Assembly (NCBI GenBank): GCA_002049455.2
Contig: KV918772.1
Span: forward strand, 124,001 to 188,000
Source: Porphyra umbilicalis
Lineage: Eukaryota > Rhodophyta > Bangiophyceae > Bangiales > Bangiaceae
Reading direction: 5' to 3'
Length of the DNA stretch: 64,000 bases
The notes under the pieces were generated by a model, which saw nothing but the letters and a program-made list of their open reading frames with translations, was not told the DNA's origin and searched no databases. Made by a program: the position numbers and the translations under genes. The stretch's first letter is position 1. Each line of letters opens with the position of its first letter. Below are positions 6,584 through 26,777 of the stretch, one piece after another.

Positions 6584-7384
6584 TTGCTCTCGGCGGTGCC
6601 GATCTTTTCCGTGCAACCAGCGTCGGAGTTGCCCAGCGAGCAACTAAATGCCTTCTTGGAGAACCCGGCCGACCCGGCGTCCCGGTTGACGCAGGCGGCC
6701 ATGAAGGCCGTCAACGCGATCTTCAAATCGAAGCGCACGAGCGACTTGCTGCCCACCGCCAAGATTGGAGTCAGTCCTTTGTTCAAAGAAAACTGTTCGC
6801 CTCTGCTCCCTGGCAACTGGCTCGACGACGAGGCCATGAACGCCTGAGGCTCTCTGCTCAAGCGGCGTCACGAGAAGACCCGCTCCACCATCCTGGCGGC
6901 GCCCAAGCACTACGTTTTCAACCCCTTTTTTTACGAGCAGCTGTGGTACCGGCAGGAGAACGTGCTCTACGTGGTGAAGCGGTGGACCAAGAAGGTCGAT
7001 ATGTTCTCGATGGTCAGTTTATTCATCACGGTCCACCTGGCCGATTCCCACTGGGCATTCCTGGTGGTGCACATCGGCGCCAATATGTGAACCCTTTCCC
7101 TCTACGACTCTTTGGGGTCGCAGCAGGAGCGGGGCACGCTCACTAATCGGCAATGGTTGACGGACGAGGCCAACAACAAACGTAAGCCCAAGCGCGAGTA
7201 AGAGATTGAGTACCCCGAGTGTCGCTAACAGGAGAACTCTGACGACTGCGGGGTTTTCACGTCGATGAATATGGACCTCATTAGCCGCGGGGTGGACCAC
7301 TTGACAACGGCTATGAGCAAGGCCTACTACCCCTGCAGGATAGCTGCTGAGATATTTTCAGGGTGTGTGGCGGGGCAGGGTTGA
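6584..7384 (+). pseudogene. Ulp1/C48-like SUMO-protease domain, four in-frame stops
   Basis: The frame reads as a Ulp1-type cysteine protease (peptidase family C48), which cleaves SUMO or related modifiers. Diagnostic blocks are all present in one frame: PGNWLDDEAMNA (entry motif), ADSHWAFLVVHIG with the catalytic His at 7049-7051, LYDSLGSQQERG with the catalytic Asp at 7106-7108, and QENSDDCGVF with the oxyanion Gln and the catalytic Cys at 7247-7249. The frame is broken by TGA at 6845 and 7088 (the second just where the family usually has Trp) and by TAA at 7199 and 7226, so it is a relic although all catalytic residues survive. Ulp1 domains are well known passengers of KDZ and Mutator-like transposons. 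The KDZ transposase relic 1.3 kb downstream suggests the former. Confidence 0.85.
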
Positions 7385-10624: not shown

Positions 10625-10690
10625 CCGGGAGATTATTTCCCAGTGCTCTGGTTGGTCATAAAGGCAAGTGACACAAACGAATGTGCAACA

Positions 10691-11337
10691 TGAAGTACCA
10701 CAATCTAGGGGGTTACCTCGAGAGAAGGCAAGTCACGGCCGTCTTAGCCGCTCGCGCGACACCCGCTATGAAACTTGAGGTCCAGGAAGTCGGGCCGATC
10801 AAAAGGCCAAGACATCGAGACACGGCTTACTTGCCGGCGACGACGGTGCCTCCAACCGTCGTCGCCCTTCGTCCTAAAAGGTCGGAAACGGTCGCCCGGG
10901 CCCAATTTCCCCAAATGGGAATTGACCCGGGCCGTCACCAACCAATGCAGATAATTTCCTCAATGCATGTCAAGTCCCCCGAGGCGATCATTACAGACGA
11001 AGGGGAGAAACCGTCCCGCGCGAAACGCGCTGCACCCGCCGCGTGGCGCCCGGTCGGCCGTCGCCTGCCGCGCTCTCTCGGGCGCGCCAGCTTCTTCTCG
11101 GGCGCGCCAATCCGGCCTCCCGCGGGGCCCGCGTGCCGGGCGCGGCGGGTCGGGTATGCTCCCCGGGTGGCCGGAGCCGGTCATCGGGGCCGCCCCCTCG
11201 CTTCGGTCCCCGCGTCGCCGCCCCGTCGGCCACCACCGCCGCTGGTGTCGCCATTTCACTTCGGGTACCGAGTCCCCCGCCGTCGCCGACGTCCCCGCGG
11301 TGTCCCCCTGGCGCATAGGGGGCCCCGTAGTACTACA
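10691..11337 (-). repeat. gypsy 3' LTR
   Basis: 647 bp, with the same boundaries as the copy at 26126-26772. Frames that run through it into flanking DNA are artefacts of its GC content. On the element's strand the purine-rich GAAGGGGA at 11338-11345 adjoins it and is the likely polypurine tract. Confidence 0.95.
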
Positions 11338-11352
11338 TCCCCTTCGGCCGAG

Positions 11353-13463
11353 ATGGAGCCGTCCCCGGCGACGCGTCCCGCCGGCCCCGTCGAGGCTCCG
11401 TCTCCTTCTCCCCCGTCGTGCCCGTCCACGGCTGCCGCCGCTCCGGGGTCGGCGTTGGCGTCCGTCGCGCTGACCACTTCGGGACCGTCCGAGCGCCGCC
11501 CAACCGTCCCCGACCGTCCGTCGGTGCCGCCGGGCATGCGGCTCCAGTATGACTCGAACGGCCGGGAGTGGCGGCATCCGCCCCGCCCAGCGGGCGCCGC
11601 CGCCGAGGCCAGCGCGGGGGCCGAGACCGCGGCTGCCTGGCGCCCGCGGCCGGCTTGGGCCCTGCTTCCTCCTCCAGCGGGGGTCCTCCGTTCGTGCCGG
11701 AGGAGCGCCGGCCGTTGTTTGGGCAGTCGGCCCCCGCGCTCCCGCCACGCCCGGCGCCGCCCGCCGGCCGAGCGTGGCTCGCCCCCTTGGGGCCGAACGT
11801 GGCCTCGGCCGACTGGCCGTTCGTCAGCGACGTCTTCCTCCAGGCTCATCCTCACGACGCAGGCGAGGCAGCCGCCGGGTGTCGGGCCTTCAAGGAGTTC
11901 GCCGAGGTGGCGGGTGCCTGTACCCGGCCGGCAGCCGAGCGCGACTTCGCTTCCTTCGTCCGCTTTGTCGGGGACAGCGCGGCGTGGCTGCGCTGCATGT
12001 CGCGGTGAAACCCGGGGCGGGTGCTCTTGGTCCCGCAGCCCGCGGCCAAGCTCCCGTTCGTCGCCGGCAAGAGGAGAACACCTACCTCAAGAATTCACAT
12101 ACACGCCTTCTTCACCGCCCTGCGGTCCAGTTCGGTCACTCCTTGGCGCAAGCCAACTTGGGGGGAGTGGGCCCTCTGATTGCCTTGGCGTCGGTGGGCC
12201 CCGCGACCGCTCCGGCGGACTTGGCGTTGGAGGCCGCGCCCCGCGCGCGCGGCGAGCTCGTCAGCGCCCGGCGGGCGGGGCACGAGGCCATCTTCCTATC
12301 CGTCCGTTCCGACATTTCCTTGACGCCGGCGCGTGCTCGCTTGCCGCCGGCAATGGTCACGCGGTGTGCGACGCCGCGGCTGCTGACGTACGAGTACCCG
12401 CCCGTCGTGACCCAGCAGCAGTCGCTGCTCCAGGTGTTCCTCTGCCACCCCATCCAGGGCGCGGCCTGCGTCATGCTGACGGCCGCCATCATGTCGGGGT
12501 GTCTGCGCGCGTATCGCGAGACGCACCGCGTCATCAAGCCGTCGCCGTGCGACTACGACTTGACGCGGAAGTTCAAGGTCGACGACCTCGTGCCGAGCGA
12601 CCGCGGTGCCGCCGACGCCTTGGAGGAGTACGACGCCATCGTGAGGGCGGTGCCCTGGGCGGTCGTCCATGACCTACTGCCCTACCACCACGATACCACC
12701 CGTCAAGCCCCGAGCACCCTGCTGCCCCACCAAGTGGGTACCGTGGCGGACGGCAGGCGCCACTACGTCCGCGTCGTAAACGCCTTGCGGACGCCGCAGG
12801 CCCCTTTGCGCGTCCGACTCGGGCGGCGGCGCCGCTGCCCCCCGTCGCGACCGCGACGATCGCTGGGGGGAGGGCGGGCCCGGCCGCCGTGCCGACGTGC
12901 GGGACGACAGTGTGTGGCCGGCGGCCGGTCCAATCGATGGCCACGGAAATATGGCCGCCGGCCGTGACGAGCCCGCGTGGCTCTCCGACGGCGGCCAGGG
13001 CCGCGATGGCGGCGCAAGTGGCGGGTGCTACGGGCGGTCCGAGTACTGCCCTGCCGACGACGCCGCGGCGCCTGCCGGTCCGCGCCCCGCGCGCTGGGAT
13101 GCCGTCCCCGCTTAAGACGGTCGCGCCATGGCGCCGATGGAGCTGCGGGTTGCCGGCCCCGTCGTAACCCCCGTTTCGGGGCAACCGCATGTCGCCTACG
13201 ATTGGTTAATGTCTGCGTTGTGGACGCCCCCTACCCCGGGGAAGTCCAGGCAGGTCGTCGCCTTGTTCGGGTACGACCCGTCCATCAACTAGTCCGAGGT
13301 GGGGCCCTGCGAGATCACCGCCGCTATGGTCGAGTACGCTCGCATTGGGCTCGCCGCCGACGTCCTCCCCTGCCTGGAGTCCCCGCGGACGCGGGCGAAG
13401 CGGTTCCACGACGCCCTGCGGCGCGTCCAACGCAAGGCGGGCCGCCCCGTTCACGTTTGGTAG
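11353..13463 (+). pseudogene. Unknown antisense ORF inside the gypsy element
   Basis: This coding-like sequence is on the strand opposite to gag-pol, within the gypsy boundaries. It starts with an ATG 15 bp inside the 3' LTR junction. It must be read in three pieces. First comes a Pro/Ser/Ala-rich N-terminus ending near PPGMRLQYDSNGREWRHPP. Next is a middle with FKEFAEVAG, ending at a TGA at 12006, then a change of frame through YEYPPVVTQQQSLLQVFLCH and DYDLTRKFKVDDLVPSD to about 12800. Last, after another change of frame, is a C-terminus ending LESPRTRAKRFHDALRRVQR and GRPVHVW before a TAG at 13461. An in-frame TAG at 13290 and a TAA near 13113 also interrupt it. I do not recognise the protein. 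Antisense extra ORFs are known in some plant gypsy lineages (Tat/Ogre/Retand); whether this is comparable is unknown. It could also be a captured gene. Confidence 0.45.
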
Positions 13464-14174: not shown

Positions 14175-14926
14175 CAGGGGTTGTCAAGATTTGGATTTTG
14201 GGCCGTAATGGGATACGGATACACGCCGATCCTTCGTATCTGATTGAGGATGACCCCAACAGCAGAGATCCGGATCAGGATATCTGTCTCTTGAACCGGA
14301 TATTTGAGTAGATTACAATCGTATCCGGATACGATTATTGCATCCGAATATAATCCCCAAAGTCCGACGGACAGCTCAATAAGAGCCCAAGCAGAACGCC
14401 ATCTAGCCGTTATTCGAGTGCTAAATGGACGACTGTACGAATTGAGAGCCACACTTGATTTCAACGCCCCGACGGGCGCCGTTGAGGCGGTTTCCCGCAG
14501 CTTTCGTTAACGGACGTCAGCAAGACCGTTCTGAATATCGTGTTACACTTTGAAAACAACGCAATCGGGTCGAGTCGCGTGATTGAGCGGTTCCACCCGG
14601 GGCGGGCTGGATCGCGGCTTGTCGCTGCCAAATGTTCGGTCATTAATCCTTCGATTGTCGGCACGCGAAAACGGAGTTTGGCTGTGTTTCACCAGAATTC
14701 TGCAGGCGCGGAAAGCCTCGTAACCGTATATATCGTTGTATCCTCACTCTAGTATCTGGGATACGGATGCGATATAATCTTGCAATTTCTGTCGAACAGG
14801 ATGGATATATCCTCACCTCCTTTTCTCATAATGCACTTTGGATACGCGTCCCCGGCTCGTATCCGAAGTGTATACGGATTTAATGTACGGATGTATTCCT
14901 CTGGGAATTATCCATGACAACCCCTG
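14175..14926. mobile_element. hAT-type MITE, copy A, in gypsy pol
   Basis: 752 bp with terminal inverted repeats CAGGGGTTGTCA...TGACAACCCCTG. It is flanked by the 8-bp duplication ATACGGTC (14167-14174) / ATACGGTG (14927-14934), with one mismatch. An 8-bp duplication and a CAGGGG terminus are typical of the hAT superfamily. There is no coding capacity. It splits the gypsy integrase from its C-terminal tail. The near-identical copy B is at 52239-52991. Confidence 0.9.
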
Positions 14927-17470
14927 ATACGGTGCGCGCGCGACGTGTGTCAACTTGCCGCCGGCGCCCTCCTCTTTGGCGTGGTCGCGCAGCCACGCGC
15001 AGCCCCGCACGGTGAGTTTCTCCGCGTGCAGCGCGAGGTGCTTGTCGTGGTCGCGCTTGTAGCGCCCCTGCGTCGCCTTGAACGTTGCCCACATCTGCGA
15101 AATGAACTGCACGTGACGGGTCCGGAGGGCGGCTTGGGCCCGCTTCTCGGCGGCGCTGCCGCGTTGCGCCGTGATGGGGTACGCCCCGGACTTGCGGATG
15201 TCCTTGAATGCCCAGCTGGATACCCCCATGGGGTTGACCACTTCCAGCGGGGCAACCCCGGTGCTACGGTTGGGACGGCTGTTGTACGCCAGCGTCAGGG
15301 CCCCATGGAGTTGGTCCCAGGACCGCGGATGCTCTGCCACGTTGTGGTTGAGGATCGTATGCATCGTGCGGTTGAACCGCTCCGTCTGCCAGTTCGTCTG
15401 CGGGTGTGACGGTGACGTCACCGTAGGCTCGATGGAGAGCAGGTTGCAAACCTGGCCCCAGAAGTGGCTGGTGAACTGAGGTCCCCCGTCCGAGAGTAGC
15501 TGGTCCGGCGGGCCATCAGCGCCCACCCAGTAGTCCAGGACGACCGAGTCGCAGTCCACCGCCGATGTACCGTCCATCGGGATGGCGCGCACCAGCTTTA
15601 TGAACCGATCCGTGATCACCAGGATGAACCGGTGGCCGGCGGCCGTCCGCTCGAGGGGCCCGTAGGGGTCCACAGCAATGTCCTGGAAGGGCACGGTGGC
15701 GGGGAACAGAGTGAGGGGCGAGCGCTGCGCCAGAGGGCGCACGAGCTGCCTGGCACAGCAGTCGCATTTCCTCACATAAGAGACGACGTCGGCCGCCATC
15801 CCCACCCAGTAGTACTACCGCCGCATCGCCGCATACATGCGGGACTCCCCGGGGTGCCCGGCGAGGGTCGCGTCGTGCTCCACATGGGGGACCTGATCCT
15901 GCAAGGAGGTTGGGACCACCACCTGGTGGGCGCCATCGGGCGCCGCACGTCGCCGGAGGACCCCATTGGGGTCCTCGACGAACGGGATGCGCCGCACGTC
16001 GTTCAGGTTCTTCACGATCTCCTTTCAGTACCCGTCGCCGGCTTGGGCCGAGAGCACCACGTCGCGCCTAATGCCACGGACAGTAGGGCCGCCGACGTAG
16101 TTGGTGGCGTCGAGCCCCCGGACCGTGTTGGCCCGCACGGCAAAGACGGGGACCGCGTCGTCGAACGCGGTGTCGTCGCTGGTCCCGAACTCCGGGCGAA
16201 AGATGCTGTCGGCCATGTTGTGTGTCATCTCCGGCTTGTAGGCGACGTCGAACTGAACCTCGCTCAGGCGAAGGCGCCAGCGTTCCAGGCGGGGATTGCC
16301 CGAGCCCTCGATGTTGAGGATCCACCGCAGGCAGTCGTGGTCCGTGCGCACGAGGAAATGGTCACCCTCGCGGTAGGGGCGGCGCTTGAGCGACGCTCAG
16401 ACGACTGCCAGGCACTCCTTCTCCGTGACCCCGTAGGGGAGCTCGTTCGTTGCCAGCCGCCGGCTGACAGACTCAACCGGCTGGAGCTTGCCGTCGTCTT
16501 GCTCTTGCAGCTGGGCGGCGCCCACTTGCGTCCCGCAGGCGTCCACGTCGAGGACGTACTTTCGCCCGCGCCGCGGGAGTGCGAGGACCGGCGGGGTCGT
16601 GAGGGCCTCCTTGAGCCGGTCGAACGCGTGCTGCTGCAATGGCGTGGCGGGGGGCACTAGGACAGGAGCTGTGGACCCCATGAGGTCCGTCAATGGCGCC
16701 GCCATCCGTGCGAAGTTCGGCACGAACCGGCGGAAGCCGTTGCACATCCCCACGAATCGCCGTACTTGCGTGCGGGTCGTGCGGAAGTGCGCCTCGCGCA
16801 GGGCGCGCGTGTGCGCGTCCATGACGCCGAGCCGGCCCGGCTTGATTTCGTCCCCGAGATATTCCACTGTCTCACGAAGGAACCGGCACTTGGGCAGGCG
16901 GTGTGTCACTTCCGCGTCGCGAAGCAGGCGCAGAACGTGGTCGACGTCGCCGACGTGTTCCTCCTTCGTCTTTGAGTACACGATTACATCGTCGAGGTAG
17001 ATGAGGCGGCTTTGCCATTTCACGTCGGAGAGGATGATGTCCAGCGCCCGCTGGAACGTCGCCGGGGCGTTTCTTAAGCCGAGCGGCATCCGTTTTGACT
17101 GGGACGCGCCCTCGTAGCACACGAAAACCGTCTTCTCCCGATCTTCGGTGGCGATGGCAACCTGCCAGTAGCCGGCGTTGCAATCCAACGTCGAGAAGAT
17201 GGTCGCCTCGACGAGGCTGTCGATGCACTCGTTCATCCGGGGCAGCGGGTACGAGTCCTTCTTGGTGACGACGTTCAGCAGTCGATGATCGACGCAGGAG
17301 CGGAGAGTGCCATCCATCTTGGGGACGAGAACGACTGGGAAACACCATTCCGACGACGTCGGTTCGATAACGTCCGCCTCCAGCTGCCGCTTGACCTCGG
17401 CCGTTTCGGCCTCCCGCGCCGTGTGCCCCGCAACGCGCGGCGCGAAGCGGACGGGCCGGGCGCCGGCGTT

Positions 17471-17888
17471 TGCTGAAACGCAGTGGTAAAAGAGGTTGGG
17501 GGACAACGGTGAAGTGGTTGAGTGGCTTGAGCTTGTGTGTGTGTGTGCGAACGTGCTTTGTTGGTTGTCCTAAGGTTTGCCCGCCTCTCCCAACCGAGAG
17601 CACCTCTCAAATAGTCCCCACCGACCCAAGTGCTCCCCCCTCTCGCGCCCACACCGACGCCCACGCCCTCGCACCGAATCGAATCACTCACCAAATCAAA
17701 AGCCACTAGAGCAAAGCGAAGATCAGATCCAAAACATGCCGAAAGTAACGCCCCAAGATCACCCAACACGAACGTGTGCAACTTGACCACGTCTTGCAAA
17801 TGTACCATGTGGGGTACCGTAAGGGTCACCGACCATTATCCATCCGCGAACCGCCAGTGGAGTCGGCGACGAGCATCACAGTCCAACA
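17471..17888 (-). repeat. copia 3' LTR
   Basis: 418 bp, from TGCTGAAACG to CAGTCCAACA as read on the plus strand. A GT dinucleotide run lies near 17533-17548. The element-strand sequence just upstream (17889-17897) is the purine tract AAGGAGGAG, the likely polypurine primer of plus-strand synthesis. Confidence 0.97.
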
Positions 17889-17923
17889 CTCCTCCTTGCT
17901 TGTTGCCGCGGTGGTTCTTGTAT

Positions 17924-20900
17924 TCAGCAAAGCCCCATGGCCTCGACATGCTTGTTGTGCATGGTCTTGCCGAGCTCCTTCATCATCGGGTCCGCCACCA
18001 TGTCGTCAGTTGCACAATGCTCCAGTGTCACCTTGCCCGTCGTGATGGCCTCGCGCACGAAGTGGTATCGAATGTCAATGTGCTTGGTGCGCTTGTGGTC
18101 GCCAGGGTTCTTGGAGAAGTCAATTCACCCGCTGTTGTCGACCTTGATGTTGATCGGCCCGCCCGAGATCGCTGTTCGCAGCCCTTGAGATGCCACGCTT
18201 TGCACGAGCTTGTTGAGCCAAACACCTTATTTGCTGGCCTCACATAGAGCCATGTACTCAGCTTCCATCGTCGACAGCACCACCGTCTTCTGCAACTTAG
18301 AACCTCAGCTGACGGCTGCTCCGCCAAAAATGAAGGTGAAGCCCGTAGTAGAACGTCGCGTCTCGTGGTCACCCGCGCAGTCGGCATCACTATAGCCTTG
18401 TAGAACACAGGGAGCGGTCTTGTCGAAGACCAGCCCCTGGTCCATCGAACCCTTGACATACCGTAGAACGCGCTTGATCGCCGCCCAATGCTCCTTGCCT
18501 TAGCACAAGACAAAAGCGACTCAGCTTCCCGATGGCGAAGGCGAGGTCAGGACGCGTCCCGACCATCAAGTACATCAAACTGCCGACGGCTTCGCGATAG
18601 GGCAGCGCGTCGTCGCTCTCGTTGGCCTTGACTAGCTGCAGGCCCACCTCCAGCGGCATTCCGATCGGGTTGCACTCTGCCATCCCGAACTTCTCGAGCA
18701 CTTGCGCCGCGTACTTGCCCTGCGACAGCTTGAGGGAGCCCAACGCATTGTCACGTCTGATCTCTAGCCCGAGGATGACCTTTGCCTCTCCCAGGTACTC
18801 CATCTCAAAACGCTTGTGCAGAGCGTCCTTAATCTTGTAGATCGCCGCCAGGCTTGATGCCACCAAAAAAAGATCGTCGACGTTCACCAGGACGATGATG
18901 ATTTCGCCGTCAGCCATAAGGAGGTAGAGGCATGCATCCGGGTCAATGTTGTCAAGCCCCTGCGACTTGAGAAAGTCGTCCAGCTTGGCGTATCACATCT
19001 GTGGGGCTTGGTTCAGCCCATACAGCGCTTGAAGGAGACGCCACACCTTGTCAGGATACGTCGGATCGACATAGTCGTCTGGCTGCCCCATGAAGACCTC
19101 CTCGTAAAGGTCGCCGTTGAGGAATGCCGACTTGACGTCCATCTGATGTAGCTCCCACGCGTTCGCCGCCGTCATCGCCAGGATGCATCGAATGGTGGTG
19201 AACTTGGCCACCGACGCGAACGTTTCGTTGAAGTCGAGCCCCTTGATCTGCCTGTTCCCCATGAAGCATAGGCGCGCCTCGTGCCGCGTCGTGTTGTTCC
19301 TGTTCTTGTCAACCTCGTTCTTGAACTTGTATACCCACTTGCCCTTCAGCACGCGTCGACTGGCCGGGCGATTTGTCAAGCGCCAAGTCTTGTTCTTGCA
19401 GATGGCTTCCATCTCCTCGTCCATAGCAATCTTCCACTTAGCCAATTCTTGCCCTTGAACGGCTTGCACGTACGTCTTGGGCGCCTCGTGAGCAACCAGA
19501 CTCACCGGTCCCCAGTACTCGACAGGTGGTCGCCGCGCTCTGCCGCTCCGACGCAGCGTGTCTTGAGAGCCGCCACTACCTTGATTGTCGTCCGCGGACT
19601 TGTCAGATCCATCGTCTTGCTTGTCGTCCTTGTCGACATTGTCAGCATCTACGTCTTCGCCGTCGCTTGCAGAACGCAAGCCCGTCTCGACTTCGTTAAC
19701 TTCGTCTTCAGGAAGCTCCTCCGCAACTTCTGCGACCTCGCTTACGTTTGTCTCGGCGAACACAACGCATCGTGCCTTGACGACCTTGCCGTTGTCGGGG
19801 ATGACCTTGTACGCCTTGCTGCCGTCGGGATAGCCTAAGAAGACGCCCTTCGCCGCCTTGTCGCCAAACGTGCCGTCGATGTGACTATTGTGCAGCACGA
19901 CCCAGTATTTCGACCCAAACACCCGAATTTAGCTTACGTTGGGCTTATTCCCGGTCCAAAGCTCAAAAGGCGTCTTGCCAACGGGACGCGCCCTGCTCGT
20001 GACGCGGTTCTTGAGGTACACCGCCGTCTTCATGGCATCCGCCCAAAGATCCTGATCGACGTCCTTGTGTCGCATCATGGTGCGAGCCATCTCCACGAGA
20101 ACTCGGTTGAGCCGCTCAGCAACTCCGTTCTGCTGCGGCGTGTCGGGCACCGTGGTCTGGTGCGTCGTGCCGTTCTCATCGTGAAGAGCCTTGAATGCGT
20201 TCGACACGTACTCGCCGCCATTGTCGGATCGCAGCATCTTGATCTTGGTTCCCCTGTGCAGCTGGGCCTTAGTCAGCCACTTCTTAAACTCAGAGAGCAG
20301 ATCGCTCTTCTTCTGCAGAAAGACCACGTCGGTCCAACGGGAGAAGTCTTCGGTGAAGGTGCCGAAGTAGAGCGCACTGCCACGCGACTGCTCCGACATT
20401 GGCCCGCCCAGGTCCGAGTGCACGAGCTGCAGGCGCTTGGTCACTCGACCTCCTCCTGCACTAGGCATAAGCGTCATAGCCGCCTTCCCATACACGCACG
20501 GCTCGCAGACGTCCTTGACAGCCATGGAAGAGAACTTGAGTCCATTATTGTCCTTGTTCTTGATCATCCGCTTAACGCCAGCCACGTTGACGTGCCCAAG
20601 GCGCTCATGCCAGAGCTGAAGAGAGGCCACCGCAGCAATATCTGACAGTGGGGCCATGTCCAGGTGGTAGATCCCGTTCTTACGAGTGCCCCACGCAGCA
20701 GTCTTCTTGTTCATCTTGCTGATCGTCTTACAGCCCTTGAATGACACTTCCGCCCCACGCTCCTCCGTCATGCCGACCGACATCAGGTTGAAGCCCATTG
20801 TAGGAACATGGAGTACCTTCTCCAACTTTATCTTGCGCGTCTTGCCGTGAACGATGACATTGAGCACGACGGTTCCGACGCCCGCCGTGGCTACGGACCC

Positions 20901-21851
20901 CTTGTCACCCATCGTGACGCTCCGTCCCGTGGTCGTGTGGTAGTCGTCAAAGCACCCGCGCATCCAGCACATGTGTGCAGACGCCGCAGAGTCCACAAGC
21001 CACGACTTGGAGATGTCATCGGTGTCAGCTGCATTGACCACCAGACAGATGGCGTCGTCGCAGTCGCAACCATCGTCAGCCGCAATCGCGGCCACCTTGT
21101 CCTGTCTCTGCTTCTTGGCCTTGAGCTCTGGGCAATCGCGAGAGATGTGCCCAAATGTATGGCAGTTGTAGCTTTCGATCTTGGAGAGGTCACAACGGCG
21201 GCCTTGACCTCGATAGTTGGCGCCGACAAGTGCCATGCCGCCAATGCGCTTCGTCGCCGGTGACTTGTCCGCCTGCCGCCGCTCCTCCTGAAGCAAGCGG
21301 CTCTTGACAAAGTCGAGGCTTAGCTCGTCCTCGCCCTTGGCGTCGAGAGCCACCAGCAGGTTCTCGTACTTTGACGTCAGCCCGTTGAGGACGCTCATGG
21401 CAACGTCCATCTCCGTCACCTCGCCGCCCATGGCCTTGAGGTTCTAGCCGAGGTTGCGCACGCGGTTGATGTAGCCCAGCATGCCCTCGCCGACGGTCAT
21501 TTCGACGGTGTAGAACTCGCTTCGCGCTTTCATCTTGTTCATCAAACTCTTGCGCTGGAAGACACCTTGCAGCGTCGACCACATTTCCGCCGTCGTCTTG
21601 CAGCCCGACACGTGCTCGAGCTGCTCAGACCCAAGGGTGAGCCCGGTGATAACGCTCGCCTTCGTGTCTCGACGCTTCCACACCGCCAACTCGCGGGTCT
21701 CCGCGTCCGTCGGCTTGCCGTCTTCCTCAAGCATATCGTCCAGGTCGCGCAGCGCGAAAACCATCTTACTGCGCTGACGCCACTCGTGGAAGTTCTTCTC
21801 CGTCAACTTGTCGATCTTGATGCCACCCATGCCAGTAGCGCCTCCGTCCAT
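17924..21851 (-). pseudogene. gag-pol: copia gag-pol polyprotein, broken
   Basis: A single minus-strand frame starts at ATG 21849-21851. Gag shows LTEKNFHEWRQRSKMVFALR, close to the usual copia gag opening, and a degenerate zinc knuckle SYNCHTFGHISRDC in which the first Cys is Ser. Protease has WLVDSAASAHMC (Asp-Ser-Ala instead of the usual Asp-Ser/Thr-Gly). Integrase shows LWHERLGHVNVAGVKRMI with CEPCVYGKA, then SRWTDVVFLQ, RSDNGGEYVSN and TPQQNGVAERLNR. RT has MDVKSAFLNGDLYEEVFMGQ and VNVDDLFLV (normally YVDD). RNase H contains VVLSTMEAEYMALCEASK. In-frame stops are visible near 21444, 19929, 18993, 18229 and 18127, plus a frameshift near 18490. The altered protease and RT boxes, if not sequencing errors, would also impair activity. 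Confidence 0.95.
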
Positions 21852-21995
21852 GATGTCGTCTTGTCGTATCGCCCGACCTTGCCGAGCCGTTCGCCTTGAC
21901 CGTCACGTCCTTGAACCACCTTGACCTCGTCGTCTTCGCACTTGCCGCGACCGCCGCGACACCAGCTGGCACACCTTGCTCTTGTCACAGCCCCG

Positions 21996-22012
21996 GCTCT
22001 GGGCCCATAACC
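21996..22012 (-). promoter_or_regulatory. copia primer-binding site matching the iMet tRNA anticodon arm
   Basis: The 17 nt next to the 5' LTR include CTGGGCCCATAACC (21999-22012, plus strand). This is identical to the anticodon arm of eukaryotic initiator tRNA-Met with its CAU anticodon, not to its 3' CCA end. Drosophila copia is known to prime from the 5' half of this tRNA, so the same half-tRNA priming is inferred here. Confidence 0.75.
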
Positions 22013-22430
22013 TGTTGAAACGCAGTGAAAAAAGGGGTTTGGGGACCACGGTGAAGTGGTTGAGTGGCTTGAGCTTGTGTGTGTGTGTGCGAACGTGCTT
22101 TGTTGGTTGTCCTAAGGTTCGCCCGCCTCTCCCAACCGAGAGCACCTCTCAAATAGTCCCCACCGACCCAAGTGCTCCCCCCTCTCGCGCCCACACCGAC
22201 GCCCACGCCCTCGCACCGAATCGAATCACTCACCAAATCAAAAGCCACTAGAGCAAAGCGAAGATCAGATCCAAAACATGCCAAAAGTAACGCCCCAAGA
22301 TCACCCAACACGAACGTGTGCAACTTGACCACGTCTTGCAAATGTACCATGTGGGGTGCCATAAGGGTCACTGACCATCATCCATCCGCGAACCGCCAGT
22401 GGAGTCGGCGACGAGCATCACAGTCCAACA
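22013..22430 (-). repeat. copia 5' LTR
   Basis: 418 bp, from TGTTGAAACG to CAGTCCAACA on the plus strand. It is expected to carry the element's promoter and polyadenylation signal. It is followed on the right by the target duplication GCGTT. Confidence 0.97.
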
Positions 22431-23991: not shown

Positions 23992-25978
23992 CTAGCTTCT
24001 CTGGGCGTGGCAGGCGCGGCCGTCCCCATGACCCACGCCGTAGGCGACCGCGGTCAACTCCTCGGAGGAACTCTCATCCTCGTCGCCTGCTGCGTTCGGG
24101 TACGCCCGGTCATCCGTCTTCACGGCGTTGCCAAAAGAAGCCGTGCCCGGCGGGACGGTCCCATGGTTGGCGCCAGTCGGCGGTCCCGGTGGAACCGGCG
24201 GTCCCGCACCCAGGGGCAGGGGTGCCGGCGGCGCTGGTCCCCGCCCGTTGCGGTGTGCCGCGACTGCCTCGCGCAGCGCGCGTCCGTGCGCCCGCGCCAC
24301 GGGAGACTGGGCGGGGCACTCCCACACCCAGTGCCCCAGGTGGCCACAGAACAAGCAGGCCCCCCGCCGACGGGGCGGGGGCCCCGCATCGGGTGCCCCG
24401 CTCCATCCGCCGCCACGTGGTGGAGGCGCCCCGCCGCATGGAAGCCGCGGGGGGCGATCCGAGTGCGGAAAGACTGTTCCCGCCCGTGAAGGCACCGGGG
24501 TGCCCGGTGCCAGGGTACCGCGCCCGCGCCCTGCCCCCGTGTGAACGGGGTACAACACCGGGCGCCCGCCTCAAGCGGGCTGCTGTTGCCTGCCCGACGC
24601 GTGCGGCAGACTGTCCACCGGTAATACTGGGACGTCGCTCGGGGACCCGTACTCAACAAGCGTCCCCGACGCGGCCAGCACCGCGGCCCACTCGGCCCGC
24701 TCCGCCTCATTACCGTAGTCCGTGACGGACAGCGCAGCTGCGGCCGAGGCGGCTCCCACCGAGAGGGCGACGGACGCCGCCGGCCGCCCGTGCCCGCCGT
24801 CGGCGGTGTGTTGCCCCGGGGTCACTGCCGGTGGCGGAGGAGGAGGTCGAGCCGTCGCTTCTGTCCGTCGACTCCGCCCCACTGGAGGCGGAGGACGAGC
24901 CCGACGGACTTTCGTCACTCTCGGTCGACGAGGGGGGCCCCGTCGATGGGGATGACGGGGCCCGTCGGGCGTACCGACGCTGCCGGTGGCCCTGAGAGGG
25001 AACCGCCTTCGGGTGTCGACGCTCGGCGCCCCTCCGGGACCGCTGCCGCGCAGGGTGCGCGGCCGGCGAGGCAGTCACCGTCAAGGCGGACCCTGTCCGG
25101 GTAGCGCCCCCCGTCCGGGGGCGTTCGCCGGACGTGCCCGACCCGGGTTCCTGGGGTGCCGGTCCGCCCGCGCTCGCGGTCGCAGAAGAAGGGCCCTGGG
25201 CCGCCGCGAGGGCCAGGGCCACGGCCGCGATGCGCCCCGGGACCGGGGTCACGTCCTATGCCGCAGTCGACGCCTCCTCCGCGGCGTCGCGGAGCACCTG
25301 AGAAAAGTGGCGCAGGTGCCCGGGGTCGGCCGCCGCCCGAGGTGGTCCTGGAGCCGCGGCTCCGCCGACCCCCTGCAGGCTGGGCCCCGACCCGCCCGTC
25401 CCGGACGGCGCGTCCAGTGACAGGTGGTCCCGGGTGGTCCTCTGCCACCGGGCCAGGGCCACCTCTTCCGGGATGACCCCGAACGCTCGCTGTGATTCCC
25501 GGCGCTGCCGCTCGGCCTCCCCCGGCGACAGCGCGTCCATTGGTCGACGCGGCCCCCGGCCCGTGGGGGTCCCGCCAACTAAGGTTCCAGACGAACTGCC
25601 CACCGCGTCCACGCGGGGAGCGCCGAAGGGCGGCGCCCCTTCCAGGCGCTGCCCGTCCAGGGGGGAAGGGTGAACCCCCGCACCCCCTGCCTGGGGCTCC
25701 ATCAGCGTGGACGTCTGTCCCGCGCCGGGAGGAGGACGAGCCCCGGTGGTCGGCGTGCGGCCGGGGTCCTCGGGCGGGGAGGTCGATTCAACCGCCACCG
25801 TACCGCCGCCGCCAACCGGGACCGCCCTTCCACCCGCAACGGGGGCCGCAGCGCCCAAGGCCGGTGTTGCCCTGGGGTATCCCGCCGGTGGCGCGTCCGT
25901 CACCCGGCTAGTGCCGGGCATCTCAAACGGAGGAACGCCCCCGTCAAGCGGGGAAGATGAGATAGATCCGCGAGCCAT
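23992..25978 (-). pseudogene. gag: gypsy gag with CCHC zinc knuckle, frameshifted
   Basis: The frame opens at ATG 25976-25978 (MARGSISSSPLDGG), about 130 bp from the primer site, and runs through Pro/Gly/Ala-rich sequence that needs changes of frame near 25255 and 24900. Near 24350 the coding frame shows CLFCGHLGHWVWEC, a C-x2-C-x4-H-x4-C nucleic-acid-binding knuckle typical of retroelement Gag. An acidic DEDESSSEE segment lies before its end at 23992. The central capsid-like domain seen in the related copy at 31601-32104 is not obvious here, so it may be deleted or badly decayed. Confidence 0.7.
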
Positions 25979-26106: not shown

Positions 26107-26125
26107 TCTCACCCGGAGTGCAAAA
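26107..26125 (-). promoter_or_regulatory. gypsy primer-binding site, degenerate
   Basis: Plus-strand GTCTCACCCGGAGTGCAAAA adjoins the LTR. It aligns with TCTCACCCGGAGCACCA at 33232-33248 in the second gypsy copy, which ends in CCA like a mature tRNA. Here about three bases of the CCA-proximal part are changed. Confidence 0.6.
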
Positions 26126-26772
26126 TGTAGTACCACAATCTAGGGGGTCGCCTCGAGAGGAGGGAAGTAACGGCCGTCTTAGCCGCTCGCGCGACACCTG
26201 CTATGGGCCTCGAGGTCCAGGAAGTCGGGCCGATCGAAAGGCCAAGACATCGAGACACGGTTTACTTGCCGGCGACGACGGTGCCTCCCACCGTTGTCGC
26301 CCCTCGTCCTAAAAGGTCTGAAACCGTCGCCCGGATCCATTTTCCCCAAATGGGAATTGACCCGGGCCGTCACCAACCAATGCAGATAATTCCCTCCATG
26401 CATGTCAAGTCCCCCGCGGCGATTATTACAGACGAGGGGGAGAAACCGTCCCGCGCGAAACGCGCTGCACCCGCCGCGTGGCGCCCGGTCGGCCGTCGCC
26501 TGCCGCGCTCTCTCGGGCGCGCCAGCGCCTTCGCGGGCGCGCCAATCCGGCCTCCCGCGGGGCCCGCGTGCCGGGCGCGGCGGGTCGGGTATGCTCCCAG
26601 GGTGGCCCGAGCCGGTCATCGGGGCCGCCCCCTCGCCCCGGTCCCCGCGTCGCCGCCCCGTCGGCCACCACCGCCGCTGGCGTCGCCATTTCACGTCGGG
26701 TACCGCGTCTCCCGCCGTCGCCGACGTCCCCGTGGTTGCCCCCTGGCGCATAGGGGGCCCCGTAGTACTACA
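26126..26772 (-). repeat. gypsy 5' LTR
   Basis: 647 bp, from TGTAGTACCAC to GTAGTACTACA, followed by the target duplication CAACA at 26773-26777. The long frames that cross it on both strands are products of GC-rich LTR sequence and occur equally in the other LTR. Confidence 0.95.
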
Positions 26773-26777
26773 CAACA

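Follow-up and report, generated by a model that had tools for sequence, protein, structure and literature searches.

A Ty3/gypsy element of the red alga Porphyra umbilicalis with a selected antisense protein gene between pol and its 3′ LTR

Open reading frames (ORFs) that lie between pol and the 3′ long terminal repeat (LTR) of a retrotransposon, and run antisense to its other genes, are a described kind, known from flowering plants and from the fungal element Boty (PMC11963269, PMC7264820, PMC8365987). In the Retand lineage of plant gypsy elements, which is described from flowering plants only, the antisense ORFs encode TRP28 (PF04195) (PMC11963269). Grande (gene23), RIRE2 and PvRetro13 also carry antisense ORFs; the Grande product is reported to be nuclear, and its gene to be transcribed from a promoter upstream of it (PMC7264820). 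A function has been argued for the plant ORFs because they occur in most copies, are conserved in sequence and have predicted domains; help to the multiplication of the element has been proposed for those of Retand and Grande, and antisense genes of human T-cell leukemia viruses (HTLV) are mentioned in the same papers (PMC11963269, PMC7264820). Here we describe an antisense ORF in a Ty3/gypsy element of the red alga Porphyra umbilicalis, found in a window of 64,000 nucleotides (contig KV918772.1, positions 124,001 to 188,000). Eleven phycobilisome matches in the genome agree with a red-algal host, and 10 of these lie on a contig, C665, that resembles a plastid. No report of antisense retrotransposon genes in red algae was found in the open-licence literature. 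The kind is known; the protein and its host lineage appear to be new.

The ORF lies on the plus strand, flanked by the integrase end of pol on one side and by the 3′ LTR on the other, and is convergent with gag-pol on the minus strand. An earlier reading of the window, made from the letters alone (the sequence-only reading), had noted an antisense coding region of about 2.1 kb starting 15 bp from the LTR edge, and the coordinates agree (ATG at 11353, LTR edge at 11337, stop ending at 13463). It had also mentioned antisense ORFs in plant elements, and a kind at the same place is indeed described (PMC11963269, PMC7264820). The window copy itself is broken: it lacks ~450 bp near 12808, and several frameshifts and stops interrupt its frame. 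Compared across the copies in the genome, the antisense ORF is a real protein gene that has been under selection.

Like Retand, the element has a long region between pol and the 3′ LTR; tandem repeats are frequent there in Retand (PMC11963269), and here a 2-kb array was seen in one copy of a sister family. Unlike Retand, its host is a red alga, and Transposase_28 (PF04195) had no match in the protein, searched against Pfam, or in the genome. The likeness to Grande gene23, RIRE2 and PvRetro13 is one of position and orientation, and the host lineage differs (PMC7264820). Boty brtn of Botrytis cinerea, compared by its description, is likewise an additional antisense gene of an LTR element outside plants (PMC8365987, PMC7264820).

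A DNA search of the genome for copies gave at least 78 matching pieces (best 40 of 120 candidates scored). At the protein level, the core had at least 101 matches of 48–100% identity, scattered over many contigs (98 out of 170 candidates scored). Twenty copies, the window copy included, reached the end of the ORF (19 flagged by script and one ending three codons short of the reference end). In four of them the ORF was uninterrupted from the ATG, encoding 856, 860, 861 and 868 amino acids (aa); two further copies, in which no stop occurs as far as the fetched piece extends (818 codons), were left out of these four. The start methionine was present in 32 of 34 aligned rows, with isoleucine in one and the start not covered in another. 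The three larger length differences inside the ORF, shared by subfamilies, were net multiples of three in most rows.

Selection was assayed on the premise that changes after insertion are neutral, and that changes common to several copies mostly arose during replication of the element. Changes shared by at least 4 of the 34 copies were compared with singletons for their distribution over positions 1/2/3 of the antisense codons, using Fisher's test. In the 34 rows, singletons were evenly spread over the three codon positions (393/369/398). For nucleotides 301–1700, the shared changes fell 11/9/53, compared with 237/224/229 for singletons (p = 1.5e-10), and 49 of 71 shared changes (69%) were silent in the antisense frame, compared with 198 of 689 singletons (29%). 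The signal was concentrated in a core, aa 131–480, where shared changes fell 8/2/42 against flat singletons of 177/173/177 (p = 4.4e-11). The sense pol, used as a positive control (18 rows), gave 6/4/34 for changes shared by at least four copies and 130/122/180 for singletons, the latter with a slight third-position bias. It is clear that purifying selection acted on the core during replication, and the codon pattern resembles the one seen in pol.

As a negative control, the LTR before the ATG gave 8/12/8 for shared changes and 106/90/106 for singletons, and 1-bp indels were also shared there. The LTR is open in the antisense frame in several copies, yet it failed the position test. Therefore, the selection signal begins within the element and not in the LTR. 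The same result led us to reject a longer protein that would begin inside the LTR, where the frame is open in some copies. It is the codon pattern of the changes, and not openness alone, that makes the antisense ORF more than a chance frame. The sequence-only reading had suggested a check of other copies and of their codon-position pattern, and its outcome favours an antisense gene. It had stated that the region reads as protein only on the antisense strand; the shared changes look coding in the antisense frame and not in the nearly open sense frame, but the antisense frame of the window copy is not continuous.

Thirteen diverged loci showed aa identities of 45–78%, depending on the stretch. 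With stop codons skipped, the ratio of nonsynonymous to synonymous rates (dN/dS) was 0.23–0.53 for core stretches of more than 100 codons (59–78% aa identity); it rose to 0.73 in short stretches and to 0.85 in one linker stretch. The coding capacity is conserved, as expected of the aORF-3R kind, the antisense accessory ORFs located between pol and 3′ LTR. Among the diverged loci reaching upstream of the ATG, two had LTRs 85–89% like those of the window and one had partial matches (77–88%); one diverged locus had the same ORF start and no LTR match upstream. The position of the ORF beside an LTR was observed only for the window copy, for the copies fetched and for a few diverged loci.

Matches to pol were sorted by identity into the element's own family (at least 72%), sister families (54–66%) and distant ones (44–45%), and were paired with antisense matches by coordinates. 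For the pairing, 100 of 103 pol rows and 83 of 101 core rows were used (3 and 18 second fragments being left out), along with the 26 of 80 C-terminal domain rows that had at least 69% identity; when the 18 core rows were restored against partnerless places, the own-family count rose from 48 to 50 of 67. An antisense match thus lay within 6 kb of pol at 50 of the 67 own-family places, and at 6.6–12.7 kb at seven more. Among the 18 places of the sister families, 12 had the C-terminal domain (aa 741–857) in antisense orientation within 6 kb downstream of pol. None of the pairs counted in the own and sister families had the same-sense orientation. The core was matched beside none of the 18 sister pol places (best candidates scored only), and neither core nor C-terminal domain was found at the 15 distant places. 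A genome search with the sister domain gave 80 places; identity was at least 69% for 26 of them, 61–62% for two short ones, and 34–44% for the others, mostly of the window family. The C-terminal domain is common to gypsy families that are only 54–66% identical in pol, which suggests that the gene has long been part of this lineage. The constraint on this domain within the family is weaker, and the case for it comes mainly from its recurrence in the sister families.

In one sister copy (L072), part of the C-terminal domain was found antisense past pol and a tandem array (39% identity, E 5e-6, 4.5-kb piece). The array, two kb long (L072:687-2718), lies between pol and the domain; its best period is 229 bp, and 172 and 286 also fit. 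It may be noted that the antisense ORF of two other copies, L050 and L053, contains inserts of ~950 bp, and that the same short peptide string stands at the insert border in L053 and at the ORF break in L072; this may be a short non-autonomous element.

The host element was delimited from TG..CA termini plus the target-site duplication, and its features are collected in Table 1. The presence of an LTR pair with a target-site duplication, and of reverse transcriptase-RNase H followed by integrase on one strand, assigns it to Ty3/gypsy; the integrase match is below the Pfam cut-off, its position being as expected. The LTRs are 93.7% alike (self-match 10691-11337 vs 26118-26772). The leader next to the 3′ LTR is probably the polypurine tract, judging from its composition.

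Table 1. Features of the Ty3/gypsy element and its antisense ORF, in window coordinates
Feature	Position	Strand	Remarks
Left target-site duplication CAACA	10686..10690	.	same 5 bases at 26773-26777
3′ LTR	10691..11337	-	directly upstream of antisense ATG; codon-position test negative there
15-bp leader, LTR to ATG	11338..11352	-	purine-rich on sense strand
Antisense ORF, degenerate copy	11353..13463	+	856-868 aa encoded by other copies
Segment matching constrained core (aa 131 to ~478)	11767..12808, approximate	+	frameshifts break window copy
Deletion junction, ~450 bp missing vs other copies	12806..12812	+	
Segment matching C-terminal domain (aa 741-857)	13135..13463, approximate	+	last part common to sister gypsy families
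Integrase of sense pol	14813..15814	-	rve 1.6e-5, Integrase_H2C2 2.4e-4, both below Pfam cut-off
Reverse transcriptase + RNase H of sense pol	16397..17569	-	RVT_1 2.8e-26, RT_RNaseH_2 2.4e-20
Nested copia element	17471..22430	-	LTRs 17471-17888 / 22013-22430, 97.1% alike; RVT_2 6.1e-35
Probable gag with zinc knuckle	23992..24570	-	zf-CCHC_2 0.011, weak, below cut-off
5′ LTR	26126..26772	-	self-match, TG..CA edges, duplication
Right target-site duplication CAACA	26773..26777	.	pairs with 10686..10690

The copia element was inserted within the pol region of the gypsy element, and its insertion is younger than the gypsy copy because its LTRs are more alike. Elsewhere in the window, a fragment of a Ulp1-type protease (6848-7087, plus strand; Peptidase_C48 1.3e-6) is possibly part of a DNA transposon, and a G-rich array at 973-1549, made of 15-bp units of GGGTGGCGACGGTGG type, possibly codes for a repeat protein.

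We consider it likely that the ORF is a conserved accessory gene of ~860 aa, promoted from the LTR, whose product aids the spread of the element from within the nucleus. This account draws on where the ORF lies and how it is oriented, on the selection seen, and on the parallels in plants (PMC11963269, PMC7264820). Since selection kept part of the protein intact during spread, the element seems to need it. An antisense promoter within the 3′ LTR would drive transcription, and the protein would act in the nucleus on the DNA, RNA or chromatin of the element. By promoting transcription, countering silencing or helping import of the integration complex, it would help the element to multiply. A nuclear regulatory role is therefore inferred. 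HBZ, the antisense gene of HTLV-1, is expressed from the 3′ LTR, and its product is a nuclear regulator; its likeness to the present gene is a works-like comparison only.

Several observations weigh against this account. The limits of the protein regions were set after looking at the data. No significant constraint was found for aa 1–130 (shared changes 12/7/9, p = 1), aa 481–566 (2/6/9, p = 0.19) or aa 567–740 (9/15/14, p = 0.86), so that the N-terminus, which is proline/alanine-rich, and the linkers show none. For aa 741–857 the values were 4/2/7 (p = 0.22) for changes shared by at least four copies and 8/6/18 (p = 0.039) for those shared by at least two. No antisense partner was found at 10 of the 67 own-family pol places or at 6 of the 18 sister places, one of the latter being at a contig end. 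There are also a few 1-bp gaps within the ORF, each common to two rows. The isoelectric point of the constrained parts (8.5–9.0) makes them no more than mildly basic, and nucleic-acid binding is therefore a guess. The most hydrophobic stretch of 19 residues, near aa 256–275, averages 1.65, a borderline value for a membrane segment under the usual rule, and contact with a membrane through this stretch is possible.

Homology and structure searches belong on the same side. The intact protein matched no family in Pfam (two copies) and no family or chain in PHROGs, NCBIfam or PDB sequences (one copy each). A profile of the protein gave a single match in PDB at E 1.3, taken as noise, as was DUF2554 at 0.22 in one of 12 alignment members searched against Pfam; the C-terminal domain gave Fis1_TPR_C at 0.034, below the cut-off. 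AlphaFold2 was uninformative on the window core piece, with a predicted local distance difference test score (pLDDT) of 30. The sequence-only reading had recognised no relative, and no credible match was obtained from Pfam, PHROG, NCBIfam or PDB.

For a 56-aa C-terminal piece, AlphaFold2 predicted two helices (pLDDT 67), too little for a fold search. In IMG/VR, nine stretches fitted the pattern and none was confirmed; plasmid sequences had no match to the antisense protein. A retroviral-like Env was rejected as a candidate, since it requires the sense orientation, whereas the ORF is antisense and no same-sense case was seen.

Among the other explanations, a function carried mainly by RNA survives best, though we regard it as unlikely. 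Double-stranded RNA and small RNAs would tune the element and the protein would have a secondary part, as proposed in general terms in PMC7264820, and the convergent stops of the antisense ORF and pol, ~210–240 bp apart in the two copies measured, could yield overlapping transcripts. However, constraint at the level of codons requires a protein; both functions may coexist.

Recent capture of a host gene, carried along as a passenger, is still less probable. LTR elements are known to capture genes (PMC7264820), and no known transposon protein was matched in the libraries searched, but purifying selection acted on the element lineages, the copies are many, and a domain is common to the sister families. 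The search for host relatives was the protein search with the core described above (98 of 170 candidates scored), in which the matches were not each checked for a surrounding element, so that a host relative is possible. The sequence-only reading had left the choice between an undescribed function and a captured gene: a selected protein without a library match has been found, but no sign of recent capture was found in that search, its matches being spread over many contigs, and the C-terminal domain is shared with the sister families.

It is quite improbable that the ORF is the remnant of a second element, inserted in reverse and then carried along. Nested insertions do occur here, but no transposon domain was found in the protein with Pfam, its side and orientation are fixed in the counted pairs, and its core is selected.

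A chance frame in a GC-rich non-coding spacer, where long opposite-strand frames are common, is hardly credible. The GC content of the window is 61%, many other frames exceed 400 aa, and in one copy a sense frame of 1053 aa covers the same stretch. In seven copies, chosen because their antisense frame looked open, that frame had no stops in any, and one sense frame had none in one copy and 1–5 in six. The excess of silent changes among those shared, and the failure of the open LTR in the position test, argue against chance. Least probable of all is coding on the sense strand (env-like or a pol extension) with the antisense frame as its mirror, because the sense frame whose wobble positions coincide with those of the antisense frame, and in which 46 of 73 shared changes (63%) are silent, has 15–18 stops in each of the seven copies, and in the nearly open sense frame just 13 of 71 are silent, which is not coding-like.

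The reading of the ORF as an accessory gene can be taken further. Tentatively, and with somewhat less than even confidence, we propose that this is an ambisense red-algal gypsy lineage whose antisense protein is old, has two domains and no relation to TRP28, was retained across sister families and is needed for spread. Splitting the shared changes of the replication era from single-copy changes reveals selection on the antisense protein and not on the adjoining LTR. A red alga is thereby added to the hosts of this kind of gene. Its protein had no relative that could be recognised in the libraries searched, and the two domains are open to functional tests. If the proposal is true, antisense accessory genes arose in the same position next to the 3′ LTR at least three times, in flowering plants, fungi and red algae, and their repeated origin would point to a general advantage of a regulator gene run from the reverse promoter of the LTR.
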